From positions 310,001 through 374,000 of the forward strand of contig JAHBXR010000002.1 in NCBI GenBank assembly GCA_019636335.1: a stretch of DNA of 64,000 bases. The letters run 5' to 3'. The notes beneath the pieces were generated by a model, which made no database searches, was not told where the DNA came from, and saw only the letters and a list, made by a program, of their open reading frames with translations. Position 1 is the stretch's first letter. Each line of letters starts with the position of its first letter. Positions 5,550-40,819 of the stretch are shown here, one piece after another. A program made the position numbers and the translations under genes. This stretch comes from Pirellulales bacterium (GTDB lineage: Bacteria > Planctomycetota > Planctomycetia > Pirellulales > JAEUIK01).

Positions 5550-6075
5550 AGGCTTTCACCATACCTAAGTGGCCCGCCCGAGGCCAATTCGGGCGGAAAT
5601 TCTGCCTGGGCTATGGTCTAGGAAAACCTTAGGGCTCCCCTAGAGGCCGCAAGGTTTGGCCAACTTACGAGCGCGGCAAAGTCTTCGTAACAAGAGCGGT
5701 AAATCATTTGTAGAAAATTACTTCCGAGCCCTCAAGGCCCTCTCCAAACGCGGACGATACGCTATCTGTCCCTCGTAGAGGAACGCGTGCCGGCCACGGC
5801 ACGAGACAGATAGCGCCAGGGACTGCGTCCCCGAATCGAGCCGAAGGATCGGCTCAGCAGCTTTGGCGCGATACGACGGCCGAACTGCGGGTTTCGACCC
5901 ACCATCCCCACCCGACGCCTTCCCTCAGCACACCGATTGCCGTTCTCACCCGTTGAGAACCCTGCCTGAAGTCAGAAGCACCTGCTTGCGCCGACCCGGC
6001 ACAAGTCGCTTCGAAATTGGCCTGCGTCAGAGTGGGGATGCGCTACCCCAGTTCTATTTAAGGAGACGTTGCTCG
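5550..6075. other. Intergenic region with a nested inverted repeat
   Basis: No gene seen in 526 bases. The notable content is a two-level inverted repeat at 5760-5815: outer arms CGCTATCTGTC-cc-TCGT and ACGAGACAGATAGCG enclose a perfect 7-bp hairpin (CGTGCCG at 5786-5792 with CGGCACG at 5797-5803). No T-run follows, so it is not a standard terminator. The region should also hold the promoter for the Cys-rich gene at 6076; no consensus box was convincing. Confidence 0.6.
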
Positions 6076-6921
6076 ATGAAATGGCACATGGTCTTGGGAG
6101 CGCTGGTGATCAGCGCCGGGTTGTGTACCCAGAGCTTCGGCTTCGAGCTGCTCGATCGCATGCTTGGCCTGCACCACCACGGTGGCTGCGGATCGAGCTG
6201 CTGCGAACCGAGCTGCTGCGAAGCGTCCGCCTGCTGCGAGCCGAGCTGCTGCGAGGCCGCGGACTGCTGCGGAGCGAACGATTGCTGCGGTGGCAATGCC
6301 TGCTGCGAGCCGAGCTGCTGCGAAGCGGATAGCTGCTGCGGTGGCGACTCGTGCTGCGGCAACGCCTGCGAGCCGAGCTGCTGCGAAGCCGCCTCGTGCT
6401 GCAAGAAGTCGTGCTGCAAGAAGCACTGCGATCTGTTCGGCGGCCTGCGTGGTCTGTTCGATTGCAACAAGTGCTGCAAGAAGTCGTGCTGCGAGCCGAG
6501 CTGCTGCGAAGCGGCTAGCTGCTGCGGTGGCGACTCGTGCTGCGGCAACGCTTGCGAGCCGAGCTGCTGCGAAGCCGCCTCGTGCTGCAAGAAGAGCTGC
6601 TGCAAGAAGCGCTGCGGTGGTCTGCTCGACCTCTTCGCCTGCAAGAAGTCTTGCTGCAAGAAGAAGTCGTGCTGCGAGCCGAGCTGCTGCGAAGCCGCTA
6701 GCTGCTGCGGTGGCGACTCGTGCTGCGGTGGCGACACCTGCTGCGGCGGCAATAGCTGCTGCGGTGGTCACTCCGGCGAAGCGGCTCCCGCCGCCGCTGG
6801 TGACGATTCGGCCCCCATGCCCCCCGCTCCCATGGCTGATCCTTCGGCCTCGGTCCAGGGCAAGCGTCGCATCGTCAACACGAACGCCAACCACACGGTC
6901 GTTCGTCGTCACTATCGCTAG
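6076..6921 (+). CDS. Secreted Cys-Cys repeat protein (CCEPSCCEA repeats)
   Basis: 281 residues from the ATG at 6076, preceded by AAGGAG (6060-6065). Residues 1-22 (MKWHMVLGALVISAGLCTQS) are a signal peptide. The mature chain is about one third cysteine, almost all as CC pairs (about 63 by hand count), arranged in blocks EPSCCEA (seven copies), GGDSCCG and KKSCCKK. At DNA level two 186-nt units (6301-6486 and 6487-6672, 62 residues each) and a third partial unit from 6670 are near-identical, which points to recent internal duplication. Short spacers DLFGGLRGLFD and GGLLDLFA break the array. The C-terminus is Ala/Pro-rich, then basic (QGKRRIV, VRRHYR). Possible roles are metal sequestration or a disulfide-crosslinked envelope layer; neither is shown. 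Acidic and lysine-rich CC blocks alternate. Confidence 0.88.
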   Translation: MKWHMVLGALVISAGLCTQSFGFELLDRMLGLHHHGGCGSSCCEPSCCEASACCEPSCCEAADCCGANDCCGGNACCEPSCCEADSCCGGDSCCGNACEPSCCEAASCCKKSCCKKHCDLFGGLRGLFDCNKCCKKSCCEPSCCEAASCCGGDSCCGNACEPSCCEAASCCKKSCCKKRCGGLLDLFACKKSCCKKKSCCEPSCCEAASCCGGDSCCGGDTCCGGNSCCGGHSGEAAPAAAGDDSAPMPPAPMADPSASVQGKRRIVNTNANHTVVRRHYR

Positions 6922-8715: not shown

Positions 8716-10677
8716 TTGTCCGCGCCCACCACTGATCTTGCCGGTCTGCGAGTCGCCGCCTTCGAGAGCCGCCGCGCCGAAGAGATGGCACAGTTGATTC
8801 GCCGCTCGGGGGGCGTGCCTGTCATTGGCCCCTCGCTGCGCGAAGTCCCCCTCGACGACCATCGCGAGGCGATCGACTTTGCCAACCTGTTGATCACCGG
8901 TCAGATCGACGTGGTGTTGTTCATGACCGGCGTGGGCACGCGATTGCTCGTGTCGGCCGTCGAGCGGCATGTCGATCGGCAACGCTTCTTGCATGCCCTG
9001 TCCGATGTGGTCACCGTGGCACGTGGCCCCAAGCCGGTGGCGGCGCTGAAGGAATTGGGCCTCGACCCGACGCATCGCGTGCCCGAGCCCAACACCTGGC
9101 GCGAACTGTTGCAAACGCTCGACACGGCGGTGCCGCTGGCGAATCAATCGGTCGCCCTGCAGGAGTACGGTCAGCCGAACCCGAGCCTGATTGCCGGCCT
9201 CGAGGCCCGCGGCGCACGCGTCACGTGCGTGCGTGTCTACCAGTGGGATCTGCCCCTCGATACCGCGCCGCTCGAGCAGACGCTTCGCGAGATCGTGGCC
9301 GGTCGGATCGACGCGATGCTGTTCACGTCGGCGCAGCAGGTCGTACACGTCGAGCAGCTTGCCGCGCGGCTGGGGTTCGCCGACGAGTTGCGCGCGGCGC
9401 TCGATCGCGTGCTGGTCACCTCGATCGGCCCGACGACCAGCGAGACCTTGCGCCAACGGGACTGGCCCGTCGATCTCGAGCCCGAGCATCCCAAGATGGG
9501 GCACCTGGTCGTCGCCCTCACGCGCCACGCCGCCGAGCTGCTCGCGCGCAAACGTCGGCTGGCTGCCGAAATGAAATCGCTGGCGTCATCGCCCCGCGTC
9601 CGCGATGCGTCGCTCGCCGCCGATCGGCCACGCCGCGCCTGGGACGACAGTGTTTTTCTTCGAGCCTGCCGGCGCGAACCCACCGAGCGCACGCCGATCT
9701 GGCTGATGCGCCAGGCCGGCCGCTATCTGCCCGAGTATCGCGAGATCCGCTCGAAGACGACCTTCCTCGAGTTGTGCAAGAATCCTGGCCTTTCGGCCGA
9801 GGTGATGATTCGCACGGTCGAGCGGTTGGGGGTCGATGCGGCGATCATCTTTTCCGATCTGTTGCCCATTCTCGAGCCGATGGGTTTCGAGCTCGAGTTC
9901 TCGGCCGGCGAAGGGCCCGTCATTCACAATCCGCTCCGCGAGGGGGATGACGTCGAGCGGATGATCGAGCTCGAGAGTGTCGAGGCGCTCGACTTCGTCA
10001 TGCAGACGGTGCGTGAGACGCGAGCCGGCCTGCCCGAACTCATCCCGGTGATTGGCTTCGCCGGCGCGCCCTTTACGCTGGCCAGTTATGCCATCGAGGG
10101 GGGCGCGAGCCGCTCGTACCTCCACACGAAGACCCTGATGTATCGCGACCCCGGCGCCTGGCACGAGTTGCTGGGCCGGCTTGCTCGCGGCGTCACGCGC
10201 TATCTGAATGCCCAGCTCGCCGCGGGCGCTCAAGCCGTGCAGATCTTCGATAGTTGGGTGGGCTGCCTCGGTCCCGACGACTATCGACAGTACGTGCTAC
10301 CCCACACCCGCGCGATCATCGACGGCATCACGCCCGGCGCGCCGGTGATCAACTTTGCGACGGGCAATCCCGCGCTGCTGCCCCTGCTGGCCGAAGCGGG
10401 GGGCGACGTGATCGGTATCGATTGGCGCATCTCGCTGGCCGAGGCCTGGAAGGCCGTTGGGCCGCAACACGCCGTGCAGGGCAATCTCGATCCGCTCGTG
10501 CTGCTGGCCACGCCCGAGGAGATTCGCCGCCGCGCGGGCCTCATTCTCGATCAGGCGGCCGGCCGGCCCGGACACATCTTCAATCTGGGGCATGGCGTCT
10601 TGCCGCAGACTCCCGTCGAGCACGTGCTCGCGCTCATCGAAGCCGTCCGCGAGCTCAGTTCTCGTCCTCTCCGCTAA
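8716..10677 (+). CDS. hemDE: Fused uroporphyrinogen-III synthase / uroporphyrinogen decarboxylase
   Basis: 653 residues in one uninterrupted frame. Residues ~10-270 are HemD (LRVAAFESRR, LFMTGVGTRLL, VALQEYGQPN, LFTSAQQVVH, ITSIGPTTSETL-type motif at ~234-245), which cyclises hydroxymethylbilane to uroporphyrinogen III. After a ~35-residue linker, residues ~310-650 are HemE, which decarboxylates it to coproporphyrinogen III: MRQAGRYLPEY (331-341), the FSDLL Asp at 381, GFAGAPFTLASYAIEGG and NLGHGVLPQTP are all present, so both halves look active. The start is TTG at 8716; the next upstream in-frame codons lead to a stop at 8686 without an ATG, and a later start would remove the first strand of HemD. 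The protoporphyrinogen oxidase gene follows 29 nt downstream. The fusion would couple two consecutive cytosolic steps. Confidence 0.94.
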   Translation: MSAPTTDLAGLRVAAFESRRAEEMAQLIRRSGGVPVIGPSLREVPLDDHREAIDFANLLITGQIDVVLFMTGVGTRLLVSAVERHVDRQRFLHALSDVVTVARGPKPVAALKELGLDPTHRVPEPNTWRELLQTLDTAVPLANQSVALQEYGQPNPSLIAGLEARGARVTCVRVYQWDLPLDTAPLEQTLREIVAGRIDAMLFTSAQQVVHVEQLAARLGFADELRAALDRVLVTSIGPTTSETLRQRDWPVDLEPEHPKMGHLVVALTRHAAELLARKRRLAAEMKSLASSPRVRDASLAADRPRRAWDDSVFLRACRREPTERTPIWLMRQAGRYLPEYREIRSKTTFLELCKNPGLSAEVMIRTVERLGVDAAIIFSDLLPILEPMGFELEFSAGEGPVIHNPLREGDDVERMIELESVEALDFVMQTVRETRAGLPELIPVIGFAGAPFTLASYAIEGGASRSYLHTKTLMYRDPGAWHELLGRLARGVTRYLNAQLAAGAQAVQIFDSWVGCLGPDDYRQYVLPHTRAIIDGITPGAPVINFATGNPALLPLLAEAGGDVIGIDWRISLAEAWKAVGPQHAVQGNLDPLVLLATPEEIRRRAGLILDQAAGRPGHIFNLGHGVLPQTPVEHVLALIEAVRELSSRPLR

Positions 10678-13222: not shown

Positions 13223-13541
13223 TCCTGGACGATACGCCCTCGGCGGCGCGGCAAGCGATGCAAGCTCATGGCCGGTGGCGATTTTCCCCTGGTCGCATCC
13301 CCCACGGATACACGCGACCTTCCGCCCCATTATAGGGCGAGCGAGGCCAAAGTGGATTGCAGAAGTGGCCATTTTGGGGGCTTAGGCTGTTTTCTCAGGT
13401 TTTTTCTCTCCCTGCCGAACAGGACAATTAGCGAAAAAGCGAAACGATTTCTGATTTCGCGTGTTGTTCAGGTGCATAGCCAGGCAGGAATTGGCTGCCC
13501 GAGCGGAGGGGACCCTGTTCGATCGATGCATGGGAGCGCGA
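13223..13541. other. Divergent promoter region between the LOG protein and the SGNH/RTX protein
   Basis: No gene seen in 319 bases. It includes an AT-richer stretch around 13380-13470 and a 6-bp hairpin (GCGAAA at 13439-13444 with TTTCGC at 13455-13460). No clear -35/-10 pair was found. The presumed Shine-Dalgarno for the downstream gene is GGGAG at 13532-13536. Confidence 0.45.
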
Positions 13542-16500
13542 ATGATGAAGCCTCGTTCCAAGTCAGCAAGTCTCTGGAAGACCACCCGGCGTTCTCCGCG
13601 CACGCGTGCTGCGTTGGTGCAGCGTGGACGCCGCCTGGCGGTCGATCAGCTCGAGGAACGGCGACTGCTCGCGGGCATCATCGCGTTCGGCGATAGCTGG
13701 GGCGTGGGCATGCGGGCCCCGACCCAGACGATGTCGAACAATCTGCTGGGGGGCCTGCCGGTGTATGGCGAGGCGATCGGTGGCCGGCGCGCCTATCAAG
13801 ACGCCGATAATCCGGCGAGCGTGATCTCGCGCATCGAAGCGCATCCCAATGCCGACGTGGTGCTCATCTGCCTGGGGGGGAACGATTTTCTGCAGGCCGC
13901 ACAGAACGGGGGATTCACCCTGGGCGGAGATAACTCGCAGCTCTTCGCGACGATCAAGGAAGATCTCGTCACCGTCATGAATACGATCCTGAATGTACGC
14001 CCCGACATTCAGATCCTGTTCGTGGGCTACGACTATCCCAACGTTTGGGACATCGGCACCAACGGCGACCTGATTCGTCTGCTGCTCGGCGTTACCCCCA
14101 CGAACGATCCTGCGGAACGTCTGCAACAAAGTGGGGTGATCAATGCCGAGATGCGTTCGGGAGAAGTCGAGTTCGAGGATATCGGGCTCGACTCGCGGCG
14201 CATTCATTACGTCTCGAATTTCGGTATCGTCTCGACCACGGTCGGTTACACCGGCAACCTGGGTACCTTTTCTGCGCTGGGCGCGTTGGGAAGCCCCACC
14301 GGATTTCCGAATCAGGCGTACACCGATTTGCCCGCCCCCATGTCGCACAAGCCAGCGGGAGATGCGATCCACCTGAATGCGGCGGGGTATTCGATCGTCG
14401 CCCAGCACGCCTACAACACCTTTTTCAATACGGCCTTCCTGCCGGCCGTCCTCGCGGCCCCCGACGTCGACTTTGGCGCGGTGCGCATCGGCGCGACGGC
14501 GACCCAGGACTTGCAGGCCTTCAACATGGGGCCCAACTTCACCAAGTTGGCCAACGTGAGCATTCCCACGATCACCGGCAGCTTCACGGGCAGCGCCGCC
14601 TCGCTGGCCTGGCTCTTCAAGGATCCCACGCTCGGTAGCGACAGCGTCACGTCGACCATCAGCTACACGCCGACCGATCGCCTGCCCGACACGCAGCAGG
14701 TGACCGTGACGAGTGCCGCGGGCAACAAGATCTCCCAGTTGACGGGCACGGGCGTCGGGCCGATCTATTCGAGCATCAGCTCGCTCGATTTCGGCGTGAC
14801 CGAGCTTGGCGCCAATACGCCGCTGCCCATCCAGATCTCGAACATCACCACCGATGGCGACCTGGGGGACCTGACCGCGCTGTCGCTCCGTTCGTTCTCC
14901 TTCAGTGGTGTGGACGCCTCTTACTTCAGCGTCACGGGCTTTACCCCCGGCATGAAGATCGACGCCGGCTCGCTCGCCTCGCTCACCATCCACGTGCTCC
15001 CCACCGCGCCGGTGGGCCTGCGCACGGCCACGCTGACCTTCTCGACCGACGTTGGCGCCGATCTGGGAGCAGCGGGCAGTTCGTACGAAATCGTGCTGTC
15101 GGCCGACGTCGTGGCGATTCCGCCCACGGCGATCGCCGGTGGACCCTACACCAGCATCGAAGGCGTGGCCGTGGCGCTGGTGGGAAGTGGCACCGGTGTG
15201 ATTTCCCTTTACGAATGGGATCTCGGCGACGACGGTTCCTACGATGCGACGGGCAAGAATCTCAACTGGATCATTACCGAAGAGGGCACGTACACCGTCC
15301 GCTTGCGCGTGACGGGCCCTGGCGGCGTCGCCACCGATACGGCGACGATCACCATCGGCAATGCCCCGCCGACGGCGAACGTAACGGGGGTCAATGTCTC
15401 GCACGTCGGGGTCTCGCAGAACTTCGTGCTGCTGGCCAACGATCCCTCGGCGGCCGACCGTGCCGCCGGTTACACCTTTACCATCGATTGGAACGGAGAT
15501 GGCGAGATCGACGAAACCGTCGTCGGTCCGAATGGCACGGTGGTCAGTCACACGTTCAACACGCCGGCGTCCTATAACGTACAGGTCCGCGCCACCGACA
15601 AGGATGGCGGCGTTAGTGCCCCCGCCACGCGCACCGTACACGTCTGGCGACTCGCGCAGGTCGGCGAAAACATCGAGTGGGAAGGGTCGGGAGGCGCCGA
15701 CTCCGTCCAGTTCATACAAACCAGCGCGACCGAGGTGGAAGTTCACACTACCAGGATCGGCGGCTTCACGACCAATTTCGTCACGGTATTCACTGGCGTC
15801 ACCGGCCGTGTGATCGGCAAGGGTCACTCCGGCAACGATGTGCTCGACGCCGCCGCGCTTTCGACCATTTCCGCGACGCTCGAAGGGGGCCGGCACAACG
15901 ATACGCTCATCGGCGGCGACGCCGACGACATCCTCCGCGGCGAGTTCGTTGGCGCGAAGGGGGATGGCGCCGAAGGGAACGACACGCTCATCGGCGGTCC
16001 CGGCAACGACCTGATCGAAGCAGACGGCCTCGAAGGAGGCGAAGACACCGTCTACGGTGGCGCCGGCAACGACACCATCCTGGGCGATGGCAGCGATGGC
16101 GCCGAAGGCCGCGCCGATCGTCTTTTTGGCGAGGATGGTAACGACCAGATCTTCGGCCACCATGGCCACGATCTTTTAGACGGCGGCGACGGAGACGACC
16201 TGCTTACCGGCGGCGACGGCAGCGAAGGGAACGACACCCTCCTCGGCGGCGCCGGCCACGACGTGCTCAGCGGTGGCTCGGGCAAGGACAGCATCTCGGG
16301 AGGGACGGGTAACGATATCCTTATCGGCGGAATGGGACTCGACACGCTGGCGGGAGAAGCGGGCGAAGACCTGTTGATCTCGGACAAGACCATCTTCGAC
16401 TTGAACGCCGCCGCGCTACTGGCCATTCACAACGAGTGGACTTCGGCGGGGAGCTACGAAGATCGCATCGCGCATCTCACCGGCACGCCCGGCGGCGCGA

Positions 16501-16679
16501 ATGGCACGATCTATCTCATCCCCGGCACCACGCTCTTCGACGACGGCGAAATCGACCATCTCACCGGCGGTGCCACCGATCTCGACTGGTTCCTCTACAA
16601 CCTGCTCGAGGACATCCTCGCCGATCACGAGCCGGGAGAGACGGAAACCGACACCAGCCTCTTCCCACTGCCCAATTAA
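13542..16679 (+). CDS. Secreted modular protein: SGNH hydrolase-like + Ig-like/PKD + RTX calcium repeats
   Basis: 1045 residues from ATGATG at 13542 with GGGAG 6 nt upstream. The N-terminus is basic, then has LEERRLLAG (37-45), close to the LEPR-XLL motif that marks large exported proteins in planctomycetes. Residues ~46-310 are an SGNH/GDSL-like hydrolase: FGDSWGVG (Ser at 52), CLGGNDF, and DAIHLNAAGY with the catalytic Asp-x-x-His. Next come choice-of-anchor-D-like strands (PDVDFGAVRIGATATQDLQ, SSLDFGVTELG), two PKD-like domains (YEWDLGDDGSY, FTIDWNGDGEI), and about ten RTX nonapeptides (GGAGNDTILGDG, GGDGDDLLTGG) at ~780-960 that should bind calcium outside the cell. It ends without a sorting motif I recognise. 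A cell-surface or released esterase is likely; the substrate is unknown. Confidence 0.88.
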   Translation: MMKPRSKSASLWKTTRRSPRTRAALVQRGRRLAVDQLEERRLLAGIIAFGDSWGVGMRAPTQTMSNNLLGGLPVYGEAIGGRRAYQDADNPASVISRIEAHPNADVVLICLGGNDFLQAAQNGGFTLGGDNSQLFATIKEDLVTVMNTILNVRPDIQILFVGYDYPNVWDIGTNGDLIRLLLGVTPTNDPAERLQQSGVINAEMRSGEVEFEDIGLDSRRIHYVSNFGIVSTTVGYTGNLGTFSALGALGSPTGFPNQAYTDLPAPMSHKPAGDAIHLNAAGYSIVAQHAYNTFFNTAFLPAVLAAPDVDFGAVRIGATATQDLQAFNMGPNFTKLANVSIPTITGSFTGSAASLAWLFKDPTLGSDSVTSTISYTPTDRLPDTQQVTVTSAAGNKISQLTGTGVGPIYSSISSLDFGVTELGANTPLPIQISNITTDGDLGDLTALSLRSFSFSGVDASYFSVTGFTPGMKIDAGSLASLTIHVLPTAPVGLRTATLTFSTDVGADLGAAGSSYEIVLSADVVAIPPTAIAGGPYTSIEGVAVALVGSGTGVISLYEWDLGDDGSYDATGKNLNWIITEEGTYTVRLRVTGPGGVATDTATITIGNAPPTANVTGVNVSHVGVSQNFVLLANDPSAADRAAGYTFTIDWNGDGEIDETVVGPNGTVVSHTFNTPASYNVQVRATDKDGGVSAPATRTVHVWRLAQVGENIEWEGSGGADSVQFIQTSATEVEVHTTRIGGFTTNFVTVFTGVTGRVIGKGHSGNDVLDAAALSTISATLEGGRHNDTLIGGDADDILRGEFVGAKGDGAEGNDTLIGGPGNDLIEADGLEGGEDTVYGGAGNDTILGDGSDGAEGRADRLFGEDGNDQIFGHHGHDLLDGGDGDDLLTGGDGSEGNDTLLGGAGHDVLSGGSGKDSISGGTGNDILIGGMGLDTLAGEAGEDLLISDKTIFDLNAAALLAIHNEWTSAGSYEDRIAHLTGTPGGANGTIYLIPGTTLFDDGEIDHLTGGATDLDWFLYNLLEDILADHEPGETETDTSLFPLPN

Positions 16680-39970: not shown

Positions 39971-40819
39971 ATGAACGAGCCGAACCATCCGACGGACGAT
40001 CCGCACGCCGACTCGCTCGGCGCGGAGCCGGAAGTGCCGGTCGGCGGTGCGGGTGAAGCTGCGCCAGCGGAACCGGTCGACGAAGTCGGCGCGGATGCGA
40101 CTCACGGCGAGCTCCAGCGCGAGGAAGAGGAGGCGGTCGCGGCCGAGGTGGCGGACGAAGTCGCCAGCGACGTGTCGGAGGCCGAGGAGCCCGTTGCCGA
40201 GGAAGAGGAGCCCGTTGCCGAGGAAGAGGAGGAGGTTGGCGAAGGACATCCGGTCGAGTTGCTCAGCGAAGAGCGTCCCGATCCCTCGAACAAGTGCTGG
40301 TACATCCTCAAGGTGCAAAGCAACCGCGAGGACTCGATTCGCGATGCACTGCTGCGTCGCGTGGCCATCGCGGGATTCGAGGATTACTTCGATCAGATCA
40401 TTATCCCCACGGAGATGGTCACCGAGTTCAAAAACGGCAAGAAGCGGGTCGTCAAGAAGAAGCTCTACCCGGGCTACCTGATGATCCACATGAGCGTCAA
40501 CGACGACACCTGGTTCCTGGTGCGCGACACCCCCGGCATCGGCGATTTCACCGGCGCCGGCGGCAAGCCGATTGCAATGCAGGAGCATGAGGTCAATCGG
40601 CTGTTGGCCAAGCAGGACGAGAAGACCCCCGACGCGCCGAAGCTGCAGATCAGCTTCAAGGCCGGGGATCGCGTGAAGATCAACGAAGGGACGTTCGAGA
40701 ACTTCGAGGGCGATGTGGACGCCATCGACGAGGCCAATGGCCGCGTGACGGTGATGATCAACATCTTCGGACGATCGACCCCCGTCGAATTGGAATACTG
40801 GCAAATCGAATCGGTGTAA
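39971..40819 (+). CDS. nusG: Transcription termination/antitermination protein NusG with acidic N-terminal extension
   Basis: 282 residues from ATG 39971 (a GTG directly before is possible), against about 180 usually. Residues 1-~107 are extra and strongly acidic ([36 protein letters not shown]), low-complexity and probably disordered. From CWYILKV (109) comes the NGN domain ([25 protein letters not shown]) and at the end the KOW domain ([20 protein letters not shown]). Both domains are complete, so RNA polymerase binding and coupling to ribosomal S10 or Rho should be intact. The acidic tail is unusual in NusG. Confidence 0.95.

Follow-up and report, generated by a model that had tools for sequence, protein, structure and literature searches.

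An exported, cysteine-packed protein family of Pirellulales as a candidate disulfide-linked partner of the YTV wall protein

The window, i.e., the whole stretch of 64,000 nucleotides analyzed here (Pirellulales bacterium, assembly GCA_019636335.1, contig JAHBXR010000002.1, positions 310,001 to 374,000), contains an open reading frame on the plus strand at 6076-6921, which translates to a 281-aa protein with a signal peptide, in agreement with the secretion claimed by the initial annotation. The protein has 64 Cys, 63 of them after residue 22, and 28 adjacent-Cys (CC) pairs; the EPSCCEA motif is present seven times, GGDSCCG and KKSCCKK three times each. The seven EPSCCEA copies and about 63 mostly paired cysteines noted previously were thus found again, but the share of "about one third" cysteine was overestimated, since Cys makes up 24% (one quarter) of the mature chain. 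Aromatic residues are scarce, with one Tyr/Trp in the mature chain, and HHH occupies residues 33-35. The signal-peptide region is a confident helix in the AlphaFold model, and the short paralogs of the family carry AxA cleavage sites immediately ahead of the same mature start. A lipoprotein was considered and rejected, as no lipobox could be read ahead of C17. Many open frames are present at the locus and conservation is confined to the 6076-6921 frame; this frame, the signal peptide, the hinges and the tail are kept order-wide, so the ORF is not a product of chance (Table 1).

Table 1. Features of the Cys-block gene and its leader, in positions of the window
Feature	Positions	Strand	Remarks
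Shine-Dalgarno AAGGAG and conserved spacer (ACGTTGCTCG)	6060..6075	+	near-identical AAAGGAGAYGTTGSTCG at about 80 family loci
Signal peptide, residues 1-22 (MKWHMVLGALVISAGLCTQSFG)	6076..6141	+	kept in all full-length homologues
Conserved mature N-terminus FELLDRMLG	6142..6168	+	columns L25-G31 nearly invariant
Acidic Cys block 1, 26 Cys, 12 D/E, 0 K/R	6169..6402	+
Basic hydrophobic hinge 1 (KKSCCKKHCDLFGGLRGLFDCNKCCKKSCCE)	6403..6495	+	LFGGLKGLF motif, order-wide
Acidic Cys block 2, 9 Cys, 0 K/R	6496..6579	+
Basic hydrophobic hinge 2 (SCCKKSCCKKRCGGLLDLFACKKSCCKKKSCCE)	6580..6678	+	
Acidic Cys block 3, 10 Cys, 0 K/R	6679..6774	+
Cys-free C-terminal tail (PPAPMADPSASVQGKRRIVN...VVRRHYR)	6775..6918	+	conserved in homologues
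Tandem unit 1, 186 nt	6301..6486	+
Tandem unit 2, 183 nt	6487..6669	+	hinge part diverged from unit 1
Partial third tandem unit	from 6670	+

The gene is preceded by a strong Shine-Dalgarno sequence (6060-6065). The 16 bases ahead of the start codon, 6060-6075 (AAGGAGACGTTGCTCG), hardly vary among about 80 loci from the order, and the 19-mer at the Shine-Dalgarno/spacer is unique in the 6.4-Mb genome when up to two mismatches are allowed; this conservation exceeds by far the requirement of a Shine-Dalgarno sequence. The upstream hairpin at 6033-6050 was rejected as a conserved RNA element, having neither a consensus structure nor an Rfam match. The Cys-block gene stands alone, with flanking genes on the opposite strand, and heme genes and a cupin gene are located nearby. 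An operon or neighborhood role was rejected as well: two different conserved neighborhoods were found, depending on the clade, without a common functional theme. Elsewhere in the window, a single reading frame (8716-10674) fuses HemD (uroporphyrinogen-III synthase) and HemE (URO-D), according to Pfam HEM4 and URO-D, and is followed by an amine-oxidase-family gene, probably of the HemG type. A large secreted-type ORF (13461-16679) shows in translation an SGNH-like N-terminal part, a PKD-like stretch and RTX-like glycine/aspartate repeats, and a perfect 21-bp tandem repeat (GAGGAGCCCGTTGCCGAGGAA) lies at 40184-40242.

The protein was found to have relatives in most genomes of its order. With the window protein as the query, matches were detected in 7/7 genomes of the same family and in 107/146 genomes of the order Pirellulales, and a profile of 13 sequences matched 60/65 same-order genomes among those listed. 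The scan of named genomes gave 65 loci, mostly in Pirellulales or Planctomycetaceae MAGs, all planctomycetes by title except one titled only "bacterium", and the gene is intact in nearly all of these loci that are long enough to judge. All hits of the order-wide search, profile search and named-genome scan are planctomycetes. The relatives in other planctomycetes suspected by the initial annotation therefore exist across Pirellulales genomes, and the frameshift or loss of the repeats that it had considered is absent from these homologues, which are intact. Full-length members follow a common plan: signal peptide, FELLDRMLG, and three Cys blocks separated by two hinges, the first of the LFGGLKGLF type, with a Cys-free PAPxxDPSAS tail in most of them. 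The tail was rejected as a common sorting signal, as nothing convincingly similar turned up among the remaining proteins in 12 genomes. In Pfam and NCBIfam, no family scored above its cut-off for the window protein and none matched more than 2/36 members of the Cys-block family; a search for solved structures returned none. The window gene is thus no singular case and belongs to an unnamed, order-wide secreted family packed with Cys. The same genome also encodes a short secreted paralog (L002, G000:C8:54114-54518) of 132 aa with 31 Cys, which has the FELLDRxLG start, the CCEPSCCE motif and one hinge, and no C-terminal tail. One-hinge short forms are present in other genomes of family f1 and, outside Pirellulales, elsewhere in the class.

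Between close homologues, most differences fall on third codon positions (e.g., p1/p2/p3 = 8/4/43), therefore purifying selection acts on the frame. The near-identical 186-nt duplication described in the initial annotation holds for about the first 120 nt of the units, where 115/120 positions (~96%) are identical, but not for the remainder, which encodes the hydrophobic hinge and has diverged with indels; ungapped identity over the whole unit is 75%. The position of unit 1 and the start of the partial third unit were given correctly, while unit 2 ends at 6669 and not at 6672. The Cys repeats differ by lineage: EPSCCEA in the window, EPACDAGNGCC in another family, and CCEPVCCEPAC, EPACGC and AEPECG elsewhere. 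Cys blocks 1 and 2 share 82% amino-acid identity within one gene vs 58-60% between distant species, and nucleotide identity of the Cys blocks is ~83% within a gene vs 73-76% for orthologous, more distant pairs; the hinges have no such within-gene excess (0.52 vs 0.50/0.43). Concerted evolution is thus limited to the Cys blocks, and the duplication in the window reflects, at one locus, a process that runs through the whole order. The recent duplication or gene conversion proposed earlier agrees with both the unit identity and this homogenization.

Charge is distributed unevenly along the chain. In 82 homologues K/R residues constitute 25% of the hinge regions vs 1.7% of the Cys blocks, and D/E residues 13% of the Cys blocks; the three Cys blocks of the window protein have 0 K/R and 19 D/E. 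The acidic/lysine alternation reported initially is therefore real as conserved segregation, but the lysines flank the two hydrophobic hinges and do not form free cross-linking blocks. The cysteines follow a CC-x3-CC / CC-x4-CC pattern, in which 59/62 of the successive spacings are 1, 4 or 5, with no C-x-C and one C-x-x-C. In 43 homologues the mature chain has an even number of Cys and in 43 an odd one, so selection does not favor complete pairing within one chain. The AlphaFold model, built from 36 sequences, has a mean pLDDT of 48 and shows only the signal-peptide helix, i.e., it predicts an intrinsically unfolded Cys-block protein.

How the walls of planctomycetes are held together, in addition to peptidoglycan or in its place, is a long-standing question, and YTV is the only well-known wall protein family. 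Cys-rich YTV proteins occur in wall preparations from planctomycetes (PMC8567305), a passage of PMC2754498 that cites Liesack 1986 reports a disulfide-bonded protein sacculus, and a YTV protein is among the essential genes of Planctopirus limnophila (PMC10632474). The YTV profile (PF07639) detected YTV proteins elsewhere in the same genome and gave no match to the window protein at E <= 10; the Cys-block gene and the YTV genes are not adjacent. The larger YTV protein (contig C13) is located in a 943-aa frame with 129 Cys and 164 K/R vs 72 D/E, and its C-terminal end is CCEPSCAEPSCAEAPCAG (CCPVPCCEPSCAEPSCAEAPCAG). A codon scan of the 6.4-Mb genome for CC-E-P-x-C-[C/A]-E gave nine matches in only three genes: the window gene has five of them, the short paralog three and the YTV tail one. 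The reversed pattern gave 0 matches in the whole genome. Recent DNA copying between the window gene and the YTV tail was rejected, as the motif codons differ between the two.

In 26 genomes of 13 families, the YTV tails were further compared with Cys-block proteins, either from the same lineage or from other ones; the tails were trimmed by hand, and those of a few genomes, being uninformative, were left out. With kinship handled by averaging within families alone, Cys-containing 4-mers common to the tail and the own-lineage protein numbered 28.8 vs 13.8 (sd 3.3) for shuffled pairings, and 0/20,000 shuffled pairings of the 13 families reached the own-lineage score. When the non-Cys letters of each tail were permuted with the Cys left where they stood, only 2.0 (sd 1.9) of the own-minus-other excess of 16.7 remained, and 0/400 shuffles were as large as the real excess, therefore amino-acid composition alone is not the explanation. 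For instance, a YTV tail with SCGCDAAP is found together with a same-lineage protein with CGCDAAP repeats, and another tail has a GLLNRILG segment and EPDCG, resembling both the hinge and the repeat seen in the corresponding Cys-block protein. The match is weak or absent in families f19 and f3 and in several f7 members (tail ends PCCE). YTV tail and Cys-block protein are thus matched within lineages, and the residue order matters. The YTV wall protein, which is basic and has the motif in its tail, is a more informative candidate partner of the acidic Cys blocks than the lysine segments.

We lean towards the Cys-block protein being a disulfide-linked envelope protein, similar to keratin-associated proteins, with the basic YTV wall protein as its partner. 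It would serve the pirellula-type cell envelope as an exported, unfolded structural component, whose three flexible acidic Cys blocks, with their dozens of thiols, may form numerous disulfides between chains, with the two basic hydrophobic hinges acting as spacers between the blocks. The likely main partner would be the long, strongly basic, Cys-rich YTV protein, with its miniature Cys-block motif at the C-terminus. To the export signal, order-wide architecture, purifying selection, Cys-repeat homogenization, missing predicted fold and YTV-tail motif sharing, all computed here, this proposal adds wall location, disulfide formation and physical YTV contact, which we infer. Linkage by disulfides is plausible.

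The main difficulty for a cross-linker lies with the thiol oxidases. The profile search for DsbA, DsbB and VKOR detected none in the genome itself or in family f1, although the controls were detected; therefore, the thiols could be oxidized by another enzyme or non-enzymatically, or they could be free or metal-bound. A lineage in which these oxidases were not found still encodes exported proteins of >60 and >120 Cys.

For this reason, metal binding is kept as the main rival, i.e., a secreted metallothionein-like protein in which the CC pairs would capture soft metals (Cu, Zn or Cd, for example), either periplasmically or extracellularly. The very high Cys content with almost no aromatics, the lack of a predicted fold, the indifference of the Cys number to odd or even and the missing thiol oxidases are consistent with metal capture, and HHH could supply extra ligands. 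However, CC pairs with gaps of 3-4 residues and nearly devoid of C-x-C and C-x-x-C are not metallothionein-like, the protein is exported, no metal gene adjoins it, and the conserved hinges, the tail and the motif common with YTV have no place in such a function, so we regard metal capture as unlikely. Self-assembly by disulfides without the YTV wall, as a protein of the cell surface or the extracellular matrix (stalk, holdfast or crateriform-pit material), would fit the sequence features equally, and the short paralog agrees with it, as do the relatives of this paralog in further f1 genomes and in the class outside Pirellulales; sharing of the YTV-tail motif is left unexplained, and we consider this role improbable. 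A periplasmic thiol store or redox buffer without a structural role agrees with the dozens of cysteines and the lack of a detected DsbA/DsbB/VKOR oxidase, but the conserved hinges, charge segregation and tail exceed the needs of a simple store, which makes it very unlikely.

The envelope protein partnering YTV could be part of a wider design, which we propose only tentatively and consider rather doubtful: a two-component keratin-like wall of Planctomycetia, in which YTV would be the basic scaffold and the unfolded Cys-block protein the acidic cross-linker, the two co-evolving via a common lineage-specific Cys motif, with the wall made in this lineage without the known Dsb/VKOR oxidases. With a Cys motif that follows the YTV tails from one lineage to the next, the order-wide family is a concrete YTV-partner candidate, and it makes disulfide cross-linking in planctomycete walls directly testable.

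Among known systems, metallothioneins are very Cys-rich, have few aromatics and are unfolded without metal, whereas the window protein is exported, is 281 aa long and has CC-x3/4-CC spacing in place of a pattern dominated by C-x-C and C-x-x-C. The chlamydial OmcA and OmcB are envelope proteins of the PVC superphylum that are thought to be disulfide cross-linked; their architecture differs from that of the window protein, and their families are absent from its Pfam matches up to E 10.

The YTV proteins (PF07639) are secreted, repetitive and Cys-rich, belong to the same phylum and genomes, and have CC-E-P-x-C in the C-terminal tail, and the window family is likewise exported, Cys-rich and restricted to planctomycetes in our searches. 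Unlike them, the window protein has no YTV repeat, is 281 aa vs ~940 aa long, has one Tyr/Trp in the mature chain vs 70 Tyr in the YTV frame, and its Cys regions are acidic while those of the YTV protein are basic.

Mammalian high-sulfur keratin-associated proteins have a similar Cys content (~22-24%), CCxPx-type pentapeptides and even CEPTC units, and form a disulfide-linked matrix (PMC8143586). Keratin_B2_2 (PF13885) matched the window protein at E 0.005 with 17.1 bits, below the cut-off of 27, and the best family member at E 1.4e-5. The window protein is bacterial, exported by a signal peptide and built with hinges and acidic/basic segregation, and descent from keratin-associated proteins is not plausible. 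It has the CCxPx pentapeptide periodicity of these proteins as a likeness of style and not of descent, and, if the proposed role is true, bacteria have converged on the design of keratin and keratin-associated proteins.
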